This document shows positions 11,396 to 38,681 of a stretch of DNA of 64,000 nt, piece by piece. Both the position numbers and the translations under genes were made by a program. The notes below the pieces were generated by a model, which ran no database searches, was not told the DNA's origin, and saw only the letters and a list, made by a program, of their open reading frames with translations. Numbering within the stretch: position 1 is the stretch's first letter; the number at the start of each line of letters is the position of its first letter. The stretch lies in the NCBI GenBank assembly GCA_028289465.1, contig JANQPM010000003.1, forward strand, positions 1-64,000, in the 5' to 3' direction. The stretch is from Lysobacterales bacterium. Its GTDB lineage: Bacteria; Pseudomonadota; Gammaproteobacteria; Xanthomonadales; SZUA-36.

Positions 11396-11438
11396 TCCGA
11401 ATCAGCTAGATGTAAGGCGCGAATCCAGACTGTAAAGC

Positions 11439-11806
<368 letters not shown>

Positions 11807-27523: not shown

Positions 27524-28360
27524 CTACGCTAAATCGACGCCCTGCCGGCGCAGCGACGCAACGATCTCGCGCCGCCGGGGACCGAACGGGTCACGGCGAA
27601 TAAAATCCGAAATCAAATCCAGATATTCCGGATGCTTGCCCAGCAAGCGGTCCATTGCATGCTGGTCCGCCGCTAATCCTAGCGGACCGAAAGACTGGTT
27701 ACCAACATGCACGACATAGGCGGAGTCGCACAGCAGATTCTGCAAGCCGGCTTTCGCGACCCGCATTGAGAAGTCATTCTCCTCGCCGTAGCCCAGCCCG
27801 AAAGTCTGCCGGTCGAAATAGCCGACCGCATCCAGGGCCCGGCGCGTGATATACATGCAAAAACCGACCGCGGTCGGTATTTCGGGATTCAATGCCGGAC
27901 CGCAGCCAGCCAGCGCCCTGGCAATCCGATCCGGCGCCGACGGCACCGGGTTGGCCCGGCAAAACTCGGGAATGGAGGCAATTTCACCGTTGTTGGTCAG
28001 CGGCGTGATGGTGCCGGCCCGTTCATGTGAAGCGGCGCATTCGATCATGCGCTCGACCCAGCCTTCGGTGACCACGGTATCCGAATTGAGCAGAATGACG
28101 TCCTGTTGGGCGAGCCGCATGCCGTGGTTCGCGGTCGCGACGAAGCCGCGATTGCGCGGCGACCGGATCACCTGCCAGCCGGTGTGCCGCTCCGCCTGCA
28201 CCGCGTCCAGCAGGTCACCGATACGGGTGTCGGTCGATGCGTCATCGATCAGCACCACCCTGTAGTTGTCAGGTACGGTTTTTTGCAGCGCGGCCAGACA
28301 CGGCGCCAATGCCTCTGGTGCGTTAAATATCGGCACGACAATACTCAGCGTGCGGTCCAT
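27524..28360 (-). CDS. Family 2 glycosyltransferase
   Basis: This 278-residue GT-A type enzyme opens with LSIVVPIFNAPEALAPCLAAL, then VVLIDDASTD and ILLNSDTVVTEGWVERM carrying the metal-binding acidic motif near residue 95. An acceptor-site-like GYGEENDFSMRVAKAG appears near residue 190. It resembles enzymes that decorate surface polysaccharides. Its ATG shares one base with the Wzt stop (TGATG), tying it to the exporter. The donor sugar and linkage cannot be read from sequence. Confidence 0.85.
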   Translation of the reverse strand: MDRTLSIVVPIFNAPEALAPCLAALQKTVPDNYRVVLIDDASTDTRIGDLLDAVQAERHTGWQVIRSPRNRGFVATANHGMRLAQQDVILLNSDTVVTEGWVERMIECAASHERAGTITPLTNNGEIASIPEFCRANPVPSAPDRIARALAGCGPALNPEIPTAVGFCMYITRRALDAVGYFDRQTFGLGYGEENDFSMRVAKAGLQNLLCDSAYVVHVGNQSFGPLGLAADQHAMDRLLGKHPEYLDLISDFIRRDPFGPRRREIVASLRRQGVDLA

Positions 28361-29553
28361 CAGCCCCCGTTCCAGTCATGTTTCAGACGCACAAAGCCGA
28401 GTTCGCGGCTGGAACCACCGACCACAAACGGTTTTTCCTTGCTGTCGAACAGCCGAATACCGGGCGGGTCCATCGCGTGCGCGCGCAGGAAATAACTGCC
28501 CGGCAGCAGCGGCAGATCGTGAAACGCGATCCGATAGCGGTACAGGCCGTCGCCCAGCGAGTGTGCATCGACCCCGGCCTGATCCGAGGAGATGCCGTAA
28601 ATCGGCGTGCCATCGGCCCGCACAATGCCGAACAGCACGACCGGTGGCGCATTGTCGTCCGAATTGTCCGGCGAAGACAGCACCGCCTCGGCCACCAACT
28701 GCTCGGCCTGATCCAGTTGCGGTATCGTATTCTGCGGCCGGCCATGAAAATTCAGCGCTTTCACCCGGTAGATGCCGGCGCTGGGGGTATTCGATCCACT
28801 GCGGCGTTCGCGGGCGGACTTGCGTTCGTGATAAGCCAGATACTGCTGGGTAACCGCGAATACATCGCCCTGCATCTTTGCCTGGCCGTCGTGGATCCAG
28901 CAGGCCTGCTGGCAGAGTTTCTGAACCTGGTACATATTGTGCGAAACCATCAGCAGCGTACCGCCTTCACCCAGGTACTGCTCAATCCATCGAATACATT
29001 TCTTTTGAAACGACTCATCGCCGACCGCGAGAATTTCATCGGTCACCAGAAGGTCCGGGCGAACGGCGGTAATCACCGCAAAGCCGAGCCTGACCACCAT
29101 GCCGGATGAGTAGTGTTTTACCGGTTCGTGGATATAGTCGCCGATATCGGCAAATTGCAGAATTTCGTCGAGCTTGCCGTTCAGGTCGGTCCGGCCCAGG
29201 CCGAGCAGAGCGGCTTTCATCCGCACGTTTTCCAGGCCGGTGAAGTCGGGCTGGAAACCGGCGCCCAGCTCCAGCAGTGCCGCCATGCTGCCTTGCGTTT
29301 CCACGCTGCCCCGGGTCGGTTTAAGTACACCGGTAATCAGCTTCAGCAAGGTCGACTTGCCCGCACCGTTCTGCCCGATCACGGCTGTCGATTGCCCGCG
29401 CTCAATGTTGAGGCTCACACCGTCGAGAACCGTGCTGCCGCCGGCATAATGGCGGCGTGTGAAGACCCGCCACAAGGCGCTGAGACGTTCGCCGGCGCCA
29501 TGCGCACGCGGGTAGACCTTGCTGACACCGGTAAGCTCGACCAGCCGTCCCAT
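28360..29553 (-). CDS. wzt: Polysaccharide ABC exporter ATPase with C-terminal sugar-binding domain
   Basis: Wzt-type ATPase energises export of a lipid-linked polysaccharide across the inner membrane. The first 245 residues are an ABC domain: Walker A IGQNGAGKSTLL, signature HYSSGMVVRLGFA and Walker B LLVTDEILAVGDE. The remaining 150 residues form an extra beta-rich domain (ending PFVVGGSSRELGFVRL) of the kind that in E. coli O8/O9a Wzt binds the capped end of the exported O-antigen. This predicts a specific glycan end structure. It starts with a TAATG overlap with the permease gene. Confidence 0.9.
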   Translation of the reverse strand: MGRLVELTGVSKVYPRAHGAGERLSALWRVFTRRHYAGGSTVLDGVSLNIERGQSTAVIGQNGAGKSTLLKLITGVLKPTRGSVETQGSMAALLELGAGFQPDFTGLENVRMKAALLGLGRTDLNGKLDEILQFADIGDYIHEPVKHYSSGMVVRLGFAVITAVRPDLLVTDEILAVGDESFQKKCIRWIEQYLGEGGTLLMVSHNMYQVQKLCQQACWIHDGQAKMQGDVFAVTQQYLAYHERKSARERRSGSNTPSAGIYRVKALNFHGRPQNTIPQLDQAEQLVAEAVLSSPDNSDDNAPPVVLFGIVRADGTPIYGISSDQAGVDAHSLGDGLYRYRIAFHDLPLLPGSYFLRAHAMDPPGIRLFDSKEKPFVVGGSSRELGFVRLKHDWNGG

Positions 29554-30326
29554 TACAGGAAATCCTCGAAATACGGGCTCAACCGGCGAAACAGGAAATA
29601 ACCAGCCAGTGCGATTAGCACAACGAAAACCAGCAAGTAGATATCGTAGCGGTTCGGCTGCCAGTCATCCCACAGCAACAACTCGCGCAGGCGCTGTACC
29701 AGAACCGCGACCGGATTGAGCAGCAGCCACGCGCGAAAGCGTTCCGGAATCAGCCCGGGGGAATACAGAATAGGCGTCGAGAAAAACCAGGCCATCATCA
29801 GCGGCGGCGTAATCTGCTGCAGATCGCGTATAAAAACCGCGAGCGCGCTGACAGCCAGCGCCATTCCGGCTGCAAAGGCCAGCAGTATCGCGAGGTACGC
29901 CACCGCCAGCGGCAGATTCAACCAATGAATCGGCGTACCGGTAAACTGCAGAACGATCAGCACCACGAGGTAGCCGGCCAGATGCATCGCGAACGACGAT
30001 GCGACCGTCGATAACGGGAAGATCTGGTTTGGCACACTGACTTTGCCGATCAGCGCCGCATTGGCCGCAATGGCATTGCTGCTTTTGATGATCGACTCGG
30101 CAAACGCCGTCCACGGCCAGAACGCAACGGCCAGATATGGAACAAATCCGGTCAGGTCTGCTTCCGGAACCCGCGCCTGAAAGATAACGACAAAGACAAA
30201 AGCGTAGATCACCAGCAGTATCAGCGGCTGGAGAAAAAGCCAGGCCAGACCGGTGATACTGCCGACATACTGGGTGAGTATTTCCCTGCGTGTCAGCTCA
30301 TAGAAGAAATTTGAATGCTGGAACAT
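29553..30326 (-). CDS. wzm: Polysaccharide ABC exporter permease
   Basis: This is the inner-membrane partner of the adjacent Wzt-like ATPase. The product (257 aa from the ATG at 30326) begins with the amphipathic FFYELTRREILTQYVGS segment of the ABC-2 type Wzm/TagG family and has about six hydrophobic helices. Motifs such as LIPERFRAWLLLNPVAVLVQRLRELLLW match O-antigen export permeases. An in-frame GTG at 30350 lies inside a strong hairpin and is a less likely start. It is the first gene of the cassette. Confidence 0.88.
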   Translation of the reverse strand: MFQHSNFFYELTRREILTQYVGSITGLAWLFLQPLILLVIYAFVFVVIFQARVPEADLTGFVPYLAVAFWPWTAFAESIIKSSNAIAANAALIGKVSVPNQIFPLSTVASSFAMHLAGYLVVLIVLQFTGTPIHWLNLPLAVAYLAILLAFAAGMALAVSALAVFIRDLQQITPPLMMAWFFSTPILYSPGLIPERFRAWLLLNPVAVLVQRLRELLLWDDWQPNRYDIYLLVFVVLIALAGYFLFRRLSPYFEDFL

Positions 30327-30337
30327 GGTTGCGCAGT

Positions 30338-30356
30338 GGGCCCGTTCCACGGGCCC
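30338..30356. other. GC-rich hairpin just before the exporter permease start
   Basis: GGGCCCG (30338-30344), a five-base loop and CGGGCCC (30350-30356) form a perfect seven-pair stem 11 bases upstream of the wzm ATG, where a ribosome site would be expected. On the plus strand it is followed by GCTTTGTT, weakly terminator-like, but no plus-strand gene ends here. It could limit wzm translation; that is inference. Confidence 0.5.
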
Positions 30357-31386: not shown

Positions 31387-31417
31387 TAAAAAAGTTGCCC
31401 CGCTGAGTAGCGGGGCA
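31387..31417 (-). terminator. Rho-independent terminator after the Ig-repeat gene
   Basis: On the minus strand TGCCCCGCT and AGCGGGGCA form a nine-pair stem with a four-base loop (31396-31417), followed by AACTTTTTT down to 31388. It lies about 25 bases after the stop of the gene at 31442. Confidence 0.85.
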
Positions 31418-31441: not shown

Positions 31442-33385
31442 TTACTGCGACTTATCGTGTTCGAACACACCGGTACACAGTGACGCGGTACAGGTAGATG
31501 AATACCGAATGTTCAGGTAGTAGTCGGTGTCCGGCACCAGTTCGCAGACGCCATTACCGGCGACCACATTCGAGTTGACTTCCCAGATGATCGGGTTGCC
31601 GATACCCCAGGTCCGCTTGCAATCGGAATCAACGCCGGTATAGGCACCTGCACACTGGCTGAACGTTCCCTGACGTACGCCGGGGGTCGAGGTATCCGGG
31701 GCCGACTCCAGACGGCCGGAGGTACCGGCCTCGCCGGAATTAAACCGGTAGGCCACATTCTCCCCTTGCGGCAGAATAAGCAGCTCCTTCCAGCTGTTGG
31801 GCTGCGGGAATGTACCGCGGAACTTCTGAGCCCAGGTTTCATTGACCAGCCTGTCGTACGGAATCGGGCAGCCGTCCTGTCCGATCTGCTGTGCCGGCAG
31901 TGCAATGAAGATATTGACCGTACCGTTATCGGAACTGGTCGAGTTGGAACAGCTAATACCGAACGCGTGAGACTGGCTGTCGCCCTTCAGCGGCAAGGTC
32001 AATGATCCGTTGGCTCCCAGGCTGCGGCCTTTCCAGCCACTGACGCCACCGGTTGACGTACAGCCCGTGGTATTACTCGAATTCCAGCTAAAGGTAACCG
32101 AATCGCCTTCCCGGATATTGGTGTCAGACGCTGTGAAGCGCGTGACCACAGCACTGGGCTGGGCGGAACCCGTCACATCGACGAAATACTCGGCTTCGAC
32201 CGTCTTGGATGAATCGTCTCTATCGAAACAGCGCAACACAAAGGTCTTATCCGAAGACGTGGTAATAGGCACCGTCGCCGAGCCGTTGGCCGCGAAGTTC
32301 TGTGAACCCCAGCCGGAGATCAGCGGGCTGACACCGCGACAGGATTGCGCGTGGTTGGTGGTCCAGGACAATCTGATACTGTTGCCGACAGCAACCGGAT
32401 TAGGCGTACCGGTAAACGACGTTACCGCCAATACATCGGGCTGGGCTTCCTGCTGTACCACAACGTTTACCGTTCTCGAGGTGCTGTTGTTCTGGTCGTC
32501 CGAACAGGTCAGCTTATGAGAACGGGTGCCCAGGACATTCGCGGTAATGGTTTCCGAACCGGAAACCGGCCGGCTTCCGCTCCAGTCGCCCGAAGCGGTG
32601 CAACTGGTCACATTAATCGCATCCCAGTTCAGCGTATACCGGCTGCCGAGGGTTACCGTTGACTGATTGCTGCGCAACGTGCGAATCGCGGGGTCGTCGG
32701 TCGGCGTCCCGCCTTCCCGTACCTGTACGGTAACGCTCTTGGTATCGCTACCTCCTTCGCCGGTACAACGCAACCCATAGGTCCTTCTTCCGGCATGGTC
32801 CTCGATAAAGGTCTCGGAAGAATTGATCGGCAATGCGCCGGTCTCGAAGTCGCTGGTACCTTCACAGAAGTTCGCATTGCAAGCTTGCCAGCTCAGGGTC
32901 AGGTTTTCGCCTTTATTGATCGTGGTCGAAGAAGCTTCGAACCGGGCAATCTTCACGTCGGTTATGCCATCGCAGGCGCCTGCAGGCGCCGGAGCCGGTG
33001 CGGGGGGCGGCGCCGGTGGTGGCGCGGGCGGCGGTGGTGGCGGTTCGGCCAGTTCAATGGCCAGATTGCCATTGGTTTTCAGCCGTACATTCCCGTTATT
33101 CGGATTGATCAGAAACCACGGAATCAGATCTGATGATCCGATAACCACATCATTGATGATCAGCCGGTTAATGACTGTTCCGGGCTCATCTAATGTTTCA
33201 TCTTTACGGCTGAAGGTAATTTTATCGTCGGTGACGAAGCTGATATTTCTGGATCCGTAATTGGCGGTGACAAATTGAATGGCGGAACTGTCGCCAATTT
33301 TCTCACCGTCAACGGTCAACTCTCCGGCAAAGGCAGCACCAGAGCTGACAATAGCACTGATGGCCGTCATTTTTAGCATACGCAT
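31442..33385 (-). CDS. Exported protein with four Ig-like repeats, function unknown
   Basis: The 647-residue product has a signal peptide (cleavage near residue 20-21, AFA-GEL), an N-terminal domain (21-112), a Pro/Ala linker (about 114-137) and four tandem Ig-like domains at about 144-222, 232-312, 318-405 and 413-495. Each shares the pattern F-x-A/G-S/T ... W-x-x-x-N ... C and a second Cys (C262/C294, C349/C386, C442/C479), suggesting one disulphide per domain. A Cys-containing C-terminal domain (about 500-647) follows. The composition is low in Lys and rich in Ser/Thr/Asn, as in extracellular proteins. I do not recognise a named family. The ATG at 33385 is chosen over a TTG two codons upstream. 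It may be a cell-surface or secreted binding protein. Confidence 0.85.
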   Translation of the reverse strand: MRMLKMTAISAIVSSGAAFAGELTVDGEKIGDSSAIQFVTANYGSRNISFVTDDKITFSRKDETLDEPGTVINRLIINDVVIGSSDLIPWFLINPNNGNVRLKTNGNLAIELAEPPPPPPAPPPAPPPAPAPAPAGACDGITDVKIARFEASSTTINKGENLTLSWQACNANFCEGTSDFETGALPINSSETFIEDHAGRRTYGLRCTGEGGSDTKSVTVQVREGGTPTDDPAIRTLRSNQSTVTLGSRYTLNWDAINVTSCTASGDWSGSRPVSGSETITANVLGTRSHKLTCSDDQNNSTSRTVNVVVQQEAQPDVLAVTSFTGTPNPVAVGNSIRLSWTTNHAQSCRGVSPLISGWGSQNFAANGSATVPITTSSDKTFVLRCFDRDDSSKTVEAEYFVDVTGSAQPSAVVTRFTASDTNIREGDSVTFSWNSSNTTGCTSTGGVSGWKGRSLGANGSLTLPLKGDSQSHAFGISCSNSTSSDNGTVNIFIALPAQQIGQDGCPIPYDRLVNETWAQKFRGTFPQPNSWKELLILPQGENVAYRFNSGEAGTSGRLESAPDTSTPGVRQGTFSQCAGAYTGVDSDCKRTWGIGNPIIWEVNSNVVAGNGVCELVPDTDYYLNIRYSSTCTASLCTGVFEHDKSQ

Positions 33386-33617: not shown

Positions 33618-35168
33618 TTAAGGAGAAGGAGCTGGGGCTGACGGCAACGGGGTCGGCGTACCTTGAGCACGCGTACCCTTATGGTCAAAGATGCCGCCGT
33701 AGTTCGCCAGTACGCTGCCACCGCCAAGGGTGCCATTGACGAACTGTTCTACCCGGAAACCGGTTACCGGCAGACCAACCAGACCGAAAGTGTCGCTACG
33801 AATTGCATCGAAGACACCGTCTAAGTCTGAGTCATAGCTTGCCATATTCAGGCGAGCCCAGCCGTTCTCGAATCCATCAGGCAGATCAAAGGTCACTGCC
33901 GTGGTGGAACCCAGAATCTCGGTCGGCTGCGGATCTTCCGACGCTTCGCCGAAGCGAATCACGTTGGTTTCGAAACACAGTTCGAACAAGATAACGTCCG
34001 GAACGATCACTGGCGGCCGCGGTGAAACGATCGGGCCACTGCTCGGAACATCCGGCGTCAGGCTTTGCTCTTCACGATCCCAGAATTCCAGAATGAAGTT
34101 CTCGCACGCTTCACCAACGCTGTCCAGCTCTTGAGTGAACGGCGGGTTCGGCAGGCCCGGACCATCAAAGTCGAATTCAGGATCAACATAGAAACGGCGG
34201 GTCGGGAAGGTAACTACCCACTCAGTCTGCGCATTCAGCGAAGCCTGGGTGTTGTATTCGTTCATGACTTGGTCATGCATGAATACTGCAGATACCGCTT
34301 CGACACCGAAGCCGTACGCGGCGGTTACCAGGCTGCCGTCATCCAGGAAGATGAAAGCGTTGGTCTGGTCGCCAGAAGCCAGTGAAGGCAATTCATCGCC
34401 GGGCTCGGTGTGCAGTTCTACACTGGAGAACCCGTTGACTGCACGCGCGTCGTAGGAGAACAGCGTGCCTTCGCCAACATTAACGATAGCAGCACCACCG
34501 AACATACCGCCGGAAGGCGCGGTGATGTCAAGGCTGTCATCATCCAGCCAGTAACCGTTAACGCCGCCGATGACGCTCCATGCGTCAACCAGTTGAGCAC
34601 AGTCATCAGGAATAAATTCGCCGGTAGGGGAACCGTCTACTACTTCCGCCACGTGAGTGGCCGCGGTAGCGGAACCCCGGTCAACGTCCAGCAAGGTACC
34701 CATTTCGATCATTTCGAAATGGCCTTCCATTGCACGGTCGATGTCTTCCGGACCACCATCAGCACGGTCACCAGAGTAGGCGAAGTTCAGGAACGCTTGA
34801 CGACCACCTAAGTCACCGAAGAAATAGGGAACAGTACAACTGGAGTCAGGAACGATCAACGTAGGCGTGCCTGCATCATCAGTAATAGCTGCAACCCACA
34901 CATCAAACGGAGACATGTACAGGTTAAAGTCAAGTACTTCGCGCGTATTCCGGCTTTCCAGGAAACGAACTTTAACGGCCTTGGCCTGATCGGTGGTGTT
35001 AACCACAGACAGCAAGGTGTCGTTTCCGCCTCGGACAGTGTAATACGGATAAATCAGTACTTCACCGAGTCCATCCGGATTTAGATTAACTGCCTGAGCG
35101 CTGCCTACGATTCCGGCAGCACCTGCCAGACCGGCCAGCACGGCAGCTGTCAGATTTTTTCTCTTCAT
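33618..35168 (-). CDS. Exported protein of unknown function, possible surface-layer type
   Basis: The 516-residue product has a clear signal peptide (MKRKNLTAAVLAGLAG..., cleavage after residue 26, AQA-VNL). A mature start NLNPDGLGEVLIYPYYTV is followed by repeated beta-strand-like stretches rich in Asp, Gly and Phe and very few Lys. The tail is Pro/Ala/Ser-rich (TPTPLPSAPAPSP). Cysteines are few and there is no lipobox or membrane anchor. Similar openings occur in uncharacterised exported proteins of gammaproteobacteria as far as I recall; no function is known to me. AGGAG precedes the ATG, and a strong private terminator follows, which suggests high expression as a single gene. Confidence 0.85.
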   Translation of the reverse strand: MKRKNLTAAVLAGLAGAAGIVGSAQAVNLNPDGLGEVLIYPYYTVRGGNDTLLSVVNTTDQAKAVKVRFLESRNTREVLDFNLYMSPFDVWVAAITDDAGTPTLIVPDSSCTVPYFFGDLGGRQAFLNFAYSGDRADGGPEDIDRAMEGHFEMIEMGTLLDVDRGSATAATHVAEVVDGSPTGEFIPDDCAQLVDAWSVIGGVNGYWLDDDSLDITAPSGGMFGGAAIVNVGEGTLFSYDARAVNGFSSVELHTEPGDELPSLASGDQTNAFIFLDDGSLVTAAYGFGVEAVSAVFMHDQVMNEYNTQASLNAQTEWVVTFPTRRFYVDPEFDFDGPGLPNPPFTQELDSVGEACENFILEFWDREEQSLTPDVPSSGPIVSPRPPVIVPDVILFELCFETNVIRFGEASEDPQPTEILGSTTAVTFDLPDGFENGWARLNMASYDSDLDGVFDAIRSDTFGLVGLPVTGFRVEQFVNGTLGGGSVLANYGGIFDHKGTRAQGTPTPLPSAPAPSP

Positions 35169-35330: not shown

Positions 35331-35729
35331 CTATTTGGCTGGAATAAACCACCATTTTTCGTCGGTTTTTACCCATTGTTCCTGGACTTGGCGGGTCGAT
35401 TCCCATTGGTCGATACCGCGCATCGGTGCCGTTACCTGGTATTCGACGTTTATCGTTACGGTACAGGCGCTGTCGTCGTTGCATTCGTGGCCGGCATAAT
35501 CCGCGCCGACCCAGCCAACCCGGCGCCTGGCCTGGCGGGCACGGTAATCCTCTAAAGTGACACTGGAGCGGTAGCCGGGGCTGAAATAGCCGTAGGCAAC
35601 CTCGATGTTGTCATTCAACAGTGCATCCCACCGCGCCTGGGCGCGGTCCTCCAATGTCTGGGGTTGCCGCTGGCAAGCGGTCAATACCAGAACACCAGAT
35701 ACTATGACTATGGATATTTTATTTTTCAT
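35331..35729 (-). CDS. Small lipoprotein downstream of the secretin gene
   Basis: The 132-residue product has a signal with lipobox LTAC (Cys19) and no Asp after the Cys, so it would be expected in the outer membrane. The mature part is a compact alpha/beta sequence with two cysteines (HECNDDSACTV) and EQWVKTDEKWWFIPAK at the end, reminiscent of NTF2-like folds such as DUF4440, but I cannot name a family. It starts 20 bp after the gspD stop on the same strand and is probably in the T2SS operon. A role as secretin pilotin or assembly helper is possible from position only. Confidence 0.75.
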   Translation of the reverse strand: MKNKISIVIVSGVLVLTACQRQPQTLEDRAQARWDALLNDNIEVAYGYFSPGYRSSVTLEDYRARQARRRVGWVGADYAGHECNDDSACTVTINVEYQVTAPMRGIDQWESTRQVQEQWVKTDEKWWFIPAK

Positions 35730-35749: not shown

Positions 35750-37939
35750 TTATCGACTGGTAGACAGCGTGATTTTCTCACCTTGCCGAATCGGCTTCAC
35801 GGTTTCAAACTTGCGCTGATATTCTTCGGTGACGTTACGCAAATCGGCATCCGACTGCACAACGGTCGGCGTAATCAGCACCAGCAGTTCCGTCCTCGTT
35901 TGATTGCGGGTCTTATTACCGAACAAGCGCCCGAACCACGGGATACGGCGCACGCCCGGCAGACCGCCCTCACTGTCGAGATCGGTTTCGCGGATCAACC
36001 CGCCCAGCAGTACCGTTTCACCGCTCTGTACCGCGATTTTGGTATTCAAGGCCCGCTCGTTGATGTTCGGGTTGTTGTTTGCGCTGGTAGAGCTTGACGG
36101 GCTGCTGACCTGCTGCTGGATATCCAGATAAACCAGGCCACCCGGATTAACGCGCGGCGTCACCGATAGCTGCACGCCGGTCCGAATGTACTGATTGGAC
36201 GCAATCGTATTGTTCTGGCCGACTGACGGATTGAAGGTGGTGGATGTCACCGCCAGGCTCTCGCCGACATTGATACTGGCTTCCTCGTTATTGCGGATCA
36301 TCAGCGACGGCGCCGACAGGATGCGCGTATCGCTGACCGAATCGAGTGCGCTGATGGTCGCCGAAACGAAGGTCCGGCCCACGCCGCGGCGGGTCAGCGT
36401 AGTGAAGAAATTATTGGTGATCGCGCCACGGTCGCTGTCGCGGCCGGTTGACAGCGGGGCAGAGCCCGACGGGCCGAAGAAGCCGTCCGGAAAGCCGGTA
36501 TCGCCCGGCTGCTGGTTACTGAAAAACCAATTCACGCCGAACTGCAACTGCTCGTTCAGCAGGACTTCGATGATCTGCGTTTCGACATGGACCTGCAACG
36601 GTTCCTGGTCCAGGCGCTTGATCGCCGCCAGAATCGCTTCGTATTGCTGCGCCGAGGCCTGGATCAGCAGCGAATTGGTTTCTTCAACCGCGGTGATGCT
36701 GACATCTTCGCTGTCCACCAGGCCGATGCCGTCGTTGGCGTCGTTGGCCCGGCGCTCCGGACGGTTTCGCCGCCGTGTCGCGTCTTCCACGCTTCGCTCG
36801 TTAAACGTATCCAGCGTGACCGGCTGCAAGCCCGGCGCAACCTGGCCGTTACGGTCCCGCCGGCCGGACACGCCGCTGCCGAAGATCTGGCTGAGATAAT
36901 CGGCCAGCACCGCGGCTTCCAGGTTTTCCACCTGGTAGACATATAGCCGGCTGGCCGCCGCGGTGCTGCCGCGGTCCAGCCGTTCCACCCATTCTCTGGC
37001 CCTTTCCAGATAGCGCGGCTGCGGGGTGATGACCATCACCGAATTCAGGCGCTCCAGCGGCATGAAGCGAAACATGCCGGCCAGCGGCGATTCGCTCTGT
37101 TCGCCGAACACCGCTTCGAGTTCCGGCACTACGGTCGCTACTTCCACCCGCGATAGCGGGAACAGGCCGATGGACATGCCCTCCAGCCAGTCCACATCAA
37201 AAATCTCGACCGTATGCAGGTAATTACCCAGCTCTTCCCGGGTGCCGGCCAGGAACAGCAGACCACGCGCATTGTCCGCATTGAGAATCGCATCTTCCCG
37301 CGCATACGGTTCCAGCAGCTTCTGCATTTCTGTCGGCGAGATGTATTTGAGCGGCACGGCACGGACTTCGTAGCCCCGGACGCTGTCGGCCGAACCCATG
37401 CGGGGAGTCAGATGGCCGCGCAGCGCATTGCTGATCGGCAACACATGATAGCGGCCATCGGTGTAGACCAGGGTTGCGCCGTTCCAGCGCAGCAGCATTT
37501 CCAGGATAGGCAGCACCTGTTTTTTCGAGATCGGCTTGGCGGTGGAAAACGTGACTTCACCGGAAACCCCGGGGCCGATCACAAAATTTTCCTGTAACAG
37601 ATCGCCCAACACGATATGCACCACGTCCTGCAGCGATGCGCCTTCCCAGTTGAAGGTCACCTCGCCGTCATCGGCCATCGCCGGCCGTGGCCGCTGCCGT
37701 GCGGCTTTTTCGTTAATGAAACTCCCGGTGCCCTGATGAACTTCTACGTCGCGCGGATCCGGTTGCTGGGCATCGACCGTTGCGATCTCCCCGGAAGCGC
37801 CGCTGCCGGCATGGACCGGGTCGGCCGCCTGCGATGCGGATGCCGGCGGCGGCCCGGCAGGCCGTGGCGGCCCGTGGCCGGTTGCGCACGCAGTCAGCAG
37901 CGCGCTGAGCACCATAATGGAAAAAAAACGGGTGTACAC
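35750..37939 (-). CDS. gspD: Type II secretion system secretin GspD, lipoprotein type
   Basis: GspD forms the outer-membrane channel of the T2SS. The 729-residue product has a lipobox LTAC (Cys18), a Pro-rich linker, N-domains (VVHIVLGDLLQENFVIG; VRAVPLKYISPTEMQKLLEPYA; SVMVITPQPRYLERAREWVERLD) and the C-terminal secretin domain with LLGGLIRE and VPWFG-like RIPWFGRLFG. A lipidated secretin is also found in Xanthomonas XpsD. AAGGAG at 37946-37951 is six bases from the GTG at 37939; a GTG one codon earlier is the alternative, and the upstream open frame overlaps gspN. Confidence 0.93.
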   Translation of the reverse strand: MYTRFFSIMVLSALLTACATGHGPPRPAGPPPASASQAADPVHAGSGASGEIATVDAQQPDPRDVEVHQGTGSFINEKAARQRPRPAMADDGEVTFNWEGASLQDVVHIVLGDLLQENFVIGPGVSGEVTFSTAKPISKKQVLPILEMLLRWNGATLVYTDGRYHVLPISNALRGHLTPRMGSADSVRGYEVRAVPLKYISPTEMQKLLEPYAREDAILNADNARGLLFLAGTREELGNYLHTVEIFDVDWLEGMSIGLFPLSRVEVATVVPELEAVFGEQSESPLAGMFRFMPLERLNSVMVITPQPRYLERAREWVERLDRGSTAAASRLYVYQVENLEAAVLADYLSQIFGSGVSGRRDRNGQVAPGLQPVTLDTFNERSVEDATRRRNRPERRANDANDGIGLVDSEDVSITAVEETNSLLIQASAQQYEAILAAIKRLDQEPLQVHVETQIIEVLLNEQLQFGVNWFFSNQQPGDTGFPDGFFGPSGSAPLSTGRDSDRGAITNNFFTTLTRRGVGRTFVSATISALDSVSDTRILSAPSLMIRNNEEASINVGESLAVTSTTFNPSVGQNNTIASNQYIRTGVQLSVTPRVNPGGLVYLDIQQQVSSPSSSTSANNNPNINERALNTKIAVQSGETVLLGGLIRETDLDSEGGLPGVRRIPWFGRLFGNKTRNQTRTELLVLITPTVVQSDADLRNVTEEYQRKFETVKPIRQGEKITLSTSR

Positions 37940-37949
37940 CACAAACTCC

Positions 37950-38681
37950 TTAATTGTTATCGTCCTGCTGAGCCCTCTCTTCAGCCTGTTCCCGCAATTG
38001 GGCACGGCGTTCCGCTATACGGCGGCGGATTTCCTCAGCTCGGGTTAATCCCTGATTGTCGGTTTCTTCGGCTTTGGCGGGCGCTTCGTTATCGTTCTGC
38101 TGATTCCGCCGGGCATTGTTCCGGGCAGCCGGTTTCGCCGGCGCCGCAGGCACAGATAGACTGCGCTGGTAGGTATGAAGTTCCAGTTCCTTGGTCTGTC
38201 CGTCATCGGAACGGAGCACCGCCAGTTTCGGCTCGACCTTGTCGACCCGCCACCCGGCCAGACCGCCTTCAAAGCCCTCGCCTTCGGCAACGCTGAGCAA
38301 CTGCTTGTTCTCGATATCGCGGACCATCGCAATGCGCGCATCGGGCGTAATCACCACACCGGCCAACTGGGCTTTCAGCGGCGGCGCGCTCGGCGCACCG
38401 GTATTTACGGGGTCTTGCGCCGGCGCTTCCACTTCGACCACCGGCCGCCGGTCCTGGTTGAATAACGGCCGTTCGTTGATATGCGCATACTGATTCAGCG
38501 GCTTCAGTTCAAACTGGCCCGCTGCTTCCGCCGGCTGCGCCTGCTGCTGCGCTACGGACTGCTGATCCACCTCGGGCATTCCGCCGCTGAACACGGCCAC
38601 CGCGGCCGAGATAGCTATCAGGCCGAGACAGGTGCCGCCCAATATCAGTGCCAGCGGATTATTTTTAAAAGCGCCGTTCAT
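37950..38681 (-). CDS. gspN: Type II secretion system protein N (XpsN/GspC-like)
   Basis: The 243-residue product has one N-terminal membrane helix (about residues 9-30), a Gln/Ala linker and a periplasmic domain (PLNQYAHINERPLFNQDRRP; LAGVVITPDARIAMVRDI; VDKVEPKLAVLRSDDG) resembling the homology region of GspC. A charged Arg/Glu-rich tail follows (EEIRRRIAERRAQLREQAEE). There is no PDZ domain. Its place between gspM and gspD equals that of Xanthomonas XpsN, which takes the GspC role of linking the inner-membrane platform to the secretin. An ATG at 38693 overlapping the gspM stop is an alternative start. Confidence 0.82.
   Translation of the reverse strand: MNGAFKNNPLALILGGTCLGLIAISAAVAVFSGGMPEVDQQSVAQQQAQPAEAAGQFELKPLNQYAHINERPLFNQDRRPVVEVEAPAQDPVNTGAPSAPPLKAQLAGVVITPDARIAMVRDIENKQLLSVAEGEGFEGGLAGWRVDKVEPKLAVLRSDDGQTKELELHTYQRSLSVPAAPAKPAARNNARRNQQNDNEAPAKAEETDNQGLTRAEEIRRRIAERRAQLREQAEERAQQDDNN

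Follow-up and report, generated by a model that had tools for sequence, protein, structure and literature searches.

Within the window, the 64,000-nucleotide stretch of DNA from a Lysobacterales bacterium analyzed here, an open frame running from 33385 to 31442 on the minus strand encodes a 647-residue Ig-repeat protein, P0001 (Table 1). A plus-strand reading of 31442-33385 is ruled out, as stops interrupt the frame. From its amino terminus, P0001 comprises a putative Sec signal peptide, an N-terminal segment, a Pro/Ala linker, four Ig-like repeats (R1–R4) and a conserved C-terminal domain (CTD), and it contains 16 cysteines in total. The repeats, the linker and the CTD had been noticed in a first-pass annotation of this DNA and are real, with the frame that carries them found on the minus strand. 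The N-terminal segment consists of two weakly similar copies of a motif of ~35–45 aa, a self-match that was equaled by 4 of 1000 shuffles.

The gene lies between a parvulin isomerase gene and a gene for another exported protein, P516, with gspD and the gsp cluster beyond, as the first-pass annotation had described. Below we assign P516 to the NpdA family of S-layer proteins and refer to its gene as npdA. On the other side, the parvulin gene is followed by genes for a Wzm-like polysaccharide export permease and a Wzt-like ATPase. In almost every cluster inspected, that of Comamonas among them, a small lipoprotein-like protein of the LP132 type is encoded between gspD and npdA. Elsewhere in the window, an RNase P RNA of bacterial class A occupies 11436-11803 on the minus strand.

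Table 1. Positions of the genes, protein domains and other features at the P0001 locus.
Feature	Position	Strand	Basis or remark
Ig-repeat protein gene P0001, 647 aa	31442..33385	-	with conserved CTD
Putative Sec signal peptide, residues ~1-20	33326..33385	-	by eye from sequence
N-terminal beta segment, residues ~21-119	33029..33325	-	low model confidence
Pro/Ala linker, residues ~114-136	32978..33046	-	sequence
Ig-like repeat R1, residues 143-224	32714..32959	-	alignment and model
Ig-like repeat R2, residues 231-312	32450..32695	-	alignment and model
Ig-like repeat R3, residues 318-406	32168..32434	-	alignment and model
Ig-like repeat R4, residues 411-497	31895..32155	-	alignment and model
CTD, residues 500-647, six conserved Cys	31445..31888	-	confident beta-sandwich model
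Terminator-like hairpin between P0001 and parvulin genes	31396..31417	-	9 perfect pairs, then T run
NpdA-family S-layer protein homologue (P516), 516 aa, directly upstream of P0001 gene	33618..35168	-	homology
NpdA loop, P516 residues ~327-343	34142-34190	-	
Small lipoprotein-like protein LP132, between gspD and npdA	35331..35729	-	conserved
GspD secretin open frame, end of T2SS cluster	35750..38005	-	
PpiC-type parvulin isomerase, directly downstream of P0001 gene	30428..31363	-	
ABC-2 polysaccharide export permease, Wzm-like	29553..30350	-	
ABC ATPase, Wzt-like	28360..29553	-	

Our results support the view that R1–R4 are Ig-like beta-sandwiches, as the first-pass annotation had proposed. None of 500 shuffles reaches any of the six pairwise scores among the repeats (z 5.6–17.6), with 19–24 identities in 73–83 alignment columns. 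Each repeat carries one Cys pair (174/207 in R1, 262/294 in R2, 349/386 in R3 and 442/479 in R4), so that the two-Cys pattern reported earlier holds in all four, whereas the accompanying W-x-x-x-N mark is found in three, R3 reading W-T-T-N-H. A whole-chain AlphaFold2 model, built from an alignment of P0001 with nine relatives, predicts Ig-like beta-sandwiches for the repeats, with a pLDDT of 71 overall, ~80 over the repeats and mostly <50 in the N-terminal part; at a pTM of 0.35, the model does not give the relative placement of the domains. Foldseek with this model returned 408 PDB chains at E ≤ 0.001, with tandem Ig proteins on top. In VIA-align, the top row was intimin D0-D1 (Z 10.6, rmsd 5.7, 163 aligned), and R4 aligned with 1l0q, a surface-layer protein of archaeal origin that has a PKD domain (Z 9.9, rmsd 1.9, 82 aligned).

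The repeats are of a broad kind. A Pfam and NCBIfam scan of the whole of P0001 gave chance matches only and reached no Ig or PKD family. The Pfam matches were TOBE_2, Phage_depo_C and DEC-1_N, none with a single stretch that passes alone, and we put the TOBE_2 match (2.5e-5) down to chance; an NCBIfam CsgA match, confined to residues 1-29, falls in the signal-peptide region and was likewise discarded. A PDB sequence search with P0001 gave nothing below E 0.2. The first-pass annotation had likewise known no named family that matches. K319L-like_PKD is matched by 4 of 10 relatives, at a best E of 2.1e-5. P0001 resembles PKD and bacterial Ig-like proteins in its beta-sandwich repeats and differs from them in having its own Cys pair in each repeat. 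Three stretches of P0001 also match phrog_2155, a phage structural family (3.6e-10); a phage origin of the repeats was set aside, as the gene sits in a conserved cluster. Invasin and intimin, too, are surface proteins of bacteria with Ig-like domains in tandem. However, P0001 has a T2SS nearby, a different terminal domain and no room for a membrane beta-barrel, because residues 140-647 are all Ig repeats and CTD; we found no outer-membrane beta-barrel translocator in P0001, and the ~100 residues ahead of the linker are too few for one.

Related repeats occur in other settings as well. The window's own genome has a large frame with two repeats of the P0001 kind (L029, G000:C54), which we take to be RHS/SpvB-like, and three Ig-repeat relatives (L014, L020, L030) stand behind propellers, presumably of the NHL type, with a different conserved C-terminal domain. 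In another genome, a frame of 994-996 aa combines four Ig repeats with the same CTD outside an npdA cluster (L012/L040, G028:C28).

Modeled alone with AlphaFold2, the CTD reaches a pLDDT of 88.7 and a pTM of 0.85; its conserved cysteines are residues 506, 578, 589, 614, 632 and 637. Among solved structures, Foldseek places the model nearest to PliG, to the C-CPE domain and to PPC domains of collagenases, at E 3e-4 to ~1e-2. VIA-align gave Z of 9.2–9.9 to PliG and C-CPE, with 94–117 residues aligned over the fold rows, and Z of 7.8–8.5 to ColG, ColH and Bacillus collagenase domains, about the level reached by common arrangements; identities over these rows are 6–14%. As modeled, the likeness to these beta-sandwiches of similar topology is one of fold only and names no function, and the clostridial enterotoxin domain rows in the PDB were rejected as a functional clue on the same ground. 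The CTD differs from PPC/collagen-binding, PliG and C-CPE domains in its own six conserved cysteines. A Pfam scan of 16 members found no convincing match and no PPC, only six unrelated families with one member each at E ≤ 1, and a PDB sequence search with the CTD profile gave nothing below E 0.33. The C-terminal domain had been called unique. This is true at the level of sequence family, where a six-Cys domain without a Pfam model is now defined, but less so of the predicted fold, which is PliG/C-CPE/PPC-like, or of the occurrence, with 110 genomes carrying the domain next to npdA.

The CTD is concentrated in the order of the window's organism. Its profile matches 37 of 61 genomes in a set made up of the window's own genome, 36 of its family and 24 from other families of the order, versus 3 of 274 genomes drawn across the class, the own genome included. 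Thirteen loci were matched by the profile in genome contigs, where P0001 alone as query gave no match; the viral contigs searched held no relative, nor did the plasmids searched with P0001. CTD proteins are found outside the npdA cluster too. Some clusters hold two CTD genes, either in tandem after npdA (L091, L090) or flanking the parvulin gene (L083).

The identity of the upstream neighbor places the gene in a known context. P516 has no match in Pfam, NCBIfam or PHROGs. A plasmid of Comamonas odontotermitis carries, in this order, gspE-gspM, gspD and genes for a small protein, for a 'cell surface protein', for a PPIase, for an ABC permease and for an ABC ATPase. Six proteins of the window were compared with this plasmid, and each matches its counterpart: P516 pairs with the 'cell surface protein' (27.9% over 480 aa, E 9e-36), and the others are the isomerase (32%, 8e-35), the small protein (29%, 5e-10), Wzm (29%, 3e-22), Wzt (35%, 1e-68) and GspD (37%, 6e-73). 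The S-layer of Paracidovorax citrulli is formed by NpdA, which has a signal peptide of 25 aa and a mature mass of 52.4 kDa and whose gene lies downstream of a gsp cluster (Gajbhiye et al. 2023, PMC10765051). The npdA carriers named in that paper include C. odontotermitis and Wenzhouxiangella, and Rudaea cellulosilytica, a gammaproteobacterium on its Xanthomonadales list, was imaged for an S-layer (PMC10765051). The NpdA S-layer cluster is described from Delftia, Acidovorax, Paracidovorax and others (PMC10765051, PMC3110197); two passages on Wenzhouxiangella AB-CW3 in PMC7691419 name no S-layer. A Wenzhouxiangella record in our set (L043) reads GspD-LP-NpdA-P0001-type gene-parvulin-Wzm-Wzt. Given the C. 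odontotermitis match, the shared gene order, the carrier list and this record, P516 is in all likelihood an NpdA-family S-layer protein, an assignment based on homology, synteny and species lists. The first-pass annotation had recognized an exported protein here but missed this identity. For the window's organism, an NpdA S-layer is predicted from these genes.

P516 matches 47 of the 61 genomes and lies ≤3 kb from gspD in 46 of these 47, the two being on different contigs in the last. Across the order, the genes run gspC-gspD-LP-P516-CTD protein-parvulin-wzm-wzt-glycosyltransferase, an arrangement that recurs in families other than the window's own. Like that of C. odontotermitis, the cluster contains the gsp genes, an npdA homologue and, in an identical arrangement, genes for a PPIase and for Wzm/Wzt; it differs from it, and from the cluster of G133, outside the order, by an extra gene between npdA and the PPIase gene.

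This extra gene, of which P0001 is the window's version, is a near-constant member of the cluster, a point that the first-pass annotation had overlooked, together with the fact that the Ig repeats are its variable part. Without double counting, the next gene after npdA is of the P0001 type in 110 of 120 resolved clusters, namely 36 of 45 in a first set and 74 of 75 in a further set from 85 further genomes. The further genomes came from a fresh test in which 398 genomes of the order were searched for NpdA. Of the 139 that matched, 48 had been seen earlier or belonged to the family, and 84 of the 91 others were fetched; the seven left out comprised two at contig edges and five without a suitable listed place. 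In the 84 further npdA regions together with seven of the family, the gene was present in 78 of 91, absent in one (G386) and unresolved in 12, of which ten lacked the room to tell. The other two (G346 and G336) have npdA with neither a P0001-type gene nor a parvulin gene within ~4.8 kb.

Between npdA and the isomerase gene, no P0001-type gene is present in Comamonas, in nine relatives from the window's family, in G386 or in G133. The gap from npdA to the parvulin gene in the nine relatives is only 74–238 bases and holds no open stretch of >51 codons on the gene strand. In a parvulin tree, from which 4 of 43 rows with over-long frames were left out, presence and absence call for three changes with Comamonas counted, and two of these are losses inside the family, one in a clade of eight genomes and one in G008, which stands among carriers on starred branches. 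As NpdA clusters exist without it, the P0001-type gene is not essential for the cluster.

Among carriers, the two parts of the protein behave differently. We counted Ig repeats in 106 cluster proteins, leaving out four partial or off-cluster proteins and those of four genomes counted before. Nine have no repeat, 57 have one, 34 have two, one has three, one (that of the window) has four and four have five; the CTD is followed by only 0–14 residues in all 106. One protein without an Ig repeat (L078) has another kind of repeat, InlB-like by eye, and in a version from G074, outside the order, a Ser/Gly spacer stands in place of Ig repeats. With a constant CTD and an Ig number that ranges from 0 to 5, the Ig repeats seem to form a stalk of adjustable length attached to the constant part.

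Terminator-like hairpins were found after the P0001-type gene in 36 of 105 clusters and after npdA in 51, against base-shuffled expectations of 0.3 and 0.8, respectively. Hairpins in these two places suggest that the output of npdA, of the P0001-type gene and of the following genes is separately tuned. Promoter-like sites at the cluster were no more frequent than chance.

On balance, we favor a model in which P0001 is an accessory surface protein of the NpdA-type S-layer cluster whose Ig stalk ends in a conserved tip for docking or binding. It would probably be a companion component of the protein coat that has not been described before. The first-pass annotation had suggested a surface or secreted binding protein, and a surface or secreted location, which we infer from the sequence context, is the likeliest reading here as well. 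In this model, P0001 would cross the inner membrane by Sec, fold in the periplasm with disulfide formation, perhaps aided by the neighboring parvulin, and leave the cell via the adjacent T2SS. It would then sit on or in the NpdA lattice, where the CTD, or possibly the N-terminal segment, could dock either to NpdA or to the O-polysaccharide that Wzm/Wzt exports, with the Ig repeats forming a stalk whose length differs among species.

An alternative, to which we give a limited though appreciable chance, is that P0001 is a secreted or surface adhesin or ligand-binder that would use the adjacent T2SS without any physical tie to the S-layer, its CTD serving as a binding head as in the like-folded collagenase and C-CPE domains. 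The folds nearest to the CTD are indeed those of binding domains, the Ig stalk matches adhesin Ig domains and CTD proteins exist outside the cluster. However, a common fold demonstrates no function, and the gene's fixed place, flanked by npdA and the parvulin gene in 110 of 120 resolved clusters, suggests a tie to NpdA and not just to the T2SS. It seems less likely that P0001 is a tether between lattice and cell that would bind both NpdA and the exported O-polysaccharide and so fix the S-layer to LPS. PPC-like beta-sandwiches can bind extended polymers, and the Wzm/Wzt neighborhood is constant, but npdA and wzm/wzt are retained in clusters that lack the gene and must therefore have a different anchor, and a stalk of varying length suits a protruding part better than a tether across a fixed gap. 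A purely periplasmic role, in which P0001 would act together with the parvulin in NpdA assembly or export without ever reaching the surface, is very improbable: although the isomerase gene adjoins the P0001 gene and the CTD fold is like that of the periplasmic lysozyme inhibitor PliG, the spacer varies widely in length and type, which would be unusual in a periplasmic chaperone, and NpdA clusters without a P0001-type gene exist.

Returning to the accessory surface protein model, a more specific and distinctly tentative version is that P0001 is a second structural subunit of the NpdA S-layer, which may dock into the lattice through its CTD and project a species-tuned Ig stalk; where the gene was lost in the family, NpdA may have grown a loop of 32–90 residues that fills its place. 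The loop in question lies between FPT(K/R)xFY and PFT and was picked after inspecting 13 alignment blocks. Within the family, it has 32–90 residues in 8 of 8 full-length NpdA proteins without the gene versus 8–16 residues in 18 of 18 with it, and over all carriers measured (n = 29 and n = 78) it has ≤26. As a general rule, however, compensation by a longer loop fails in G386 and G133, both of which lack the gene and have a loop of 10 residues, and Comamonas, with a loop of 29 residues, also speaks against it; we therefore keep it as a lead that rests on two independent losses.

Judged by their listings, none of the papers found in the literature searched covers a P0001-type gene or its position after npdA, and we came across no account of NpdA partner proteins, although the gene may appear in Fig. 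S5 of PMC10765051. The consulted sections of that paper mention no extra gene between npdA and the PPIase gene, and its main text uses neither 'parvulin' nor 'peptidyl'. NpdA S-layers have been recognized only recently, and the P0001-type gene is a candidate partner gene found in the large majority of resolved clusters. Nine species of one family serve as natural knock-outs and the NpdA loop is a candidate site of contact, so that the anchoring or decoration of a T2SS-linked Gram-negative S-layer becomes testable. Some genomes of the order have many NpdA-matching places, with ten in G047.
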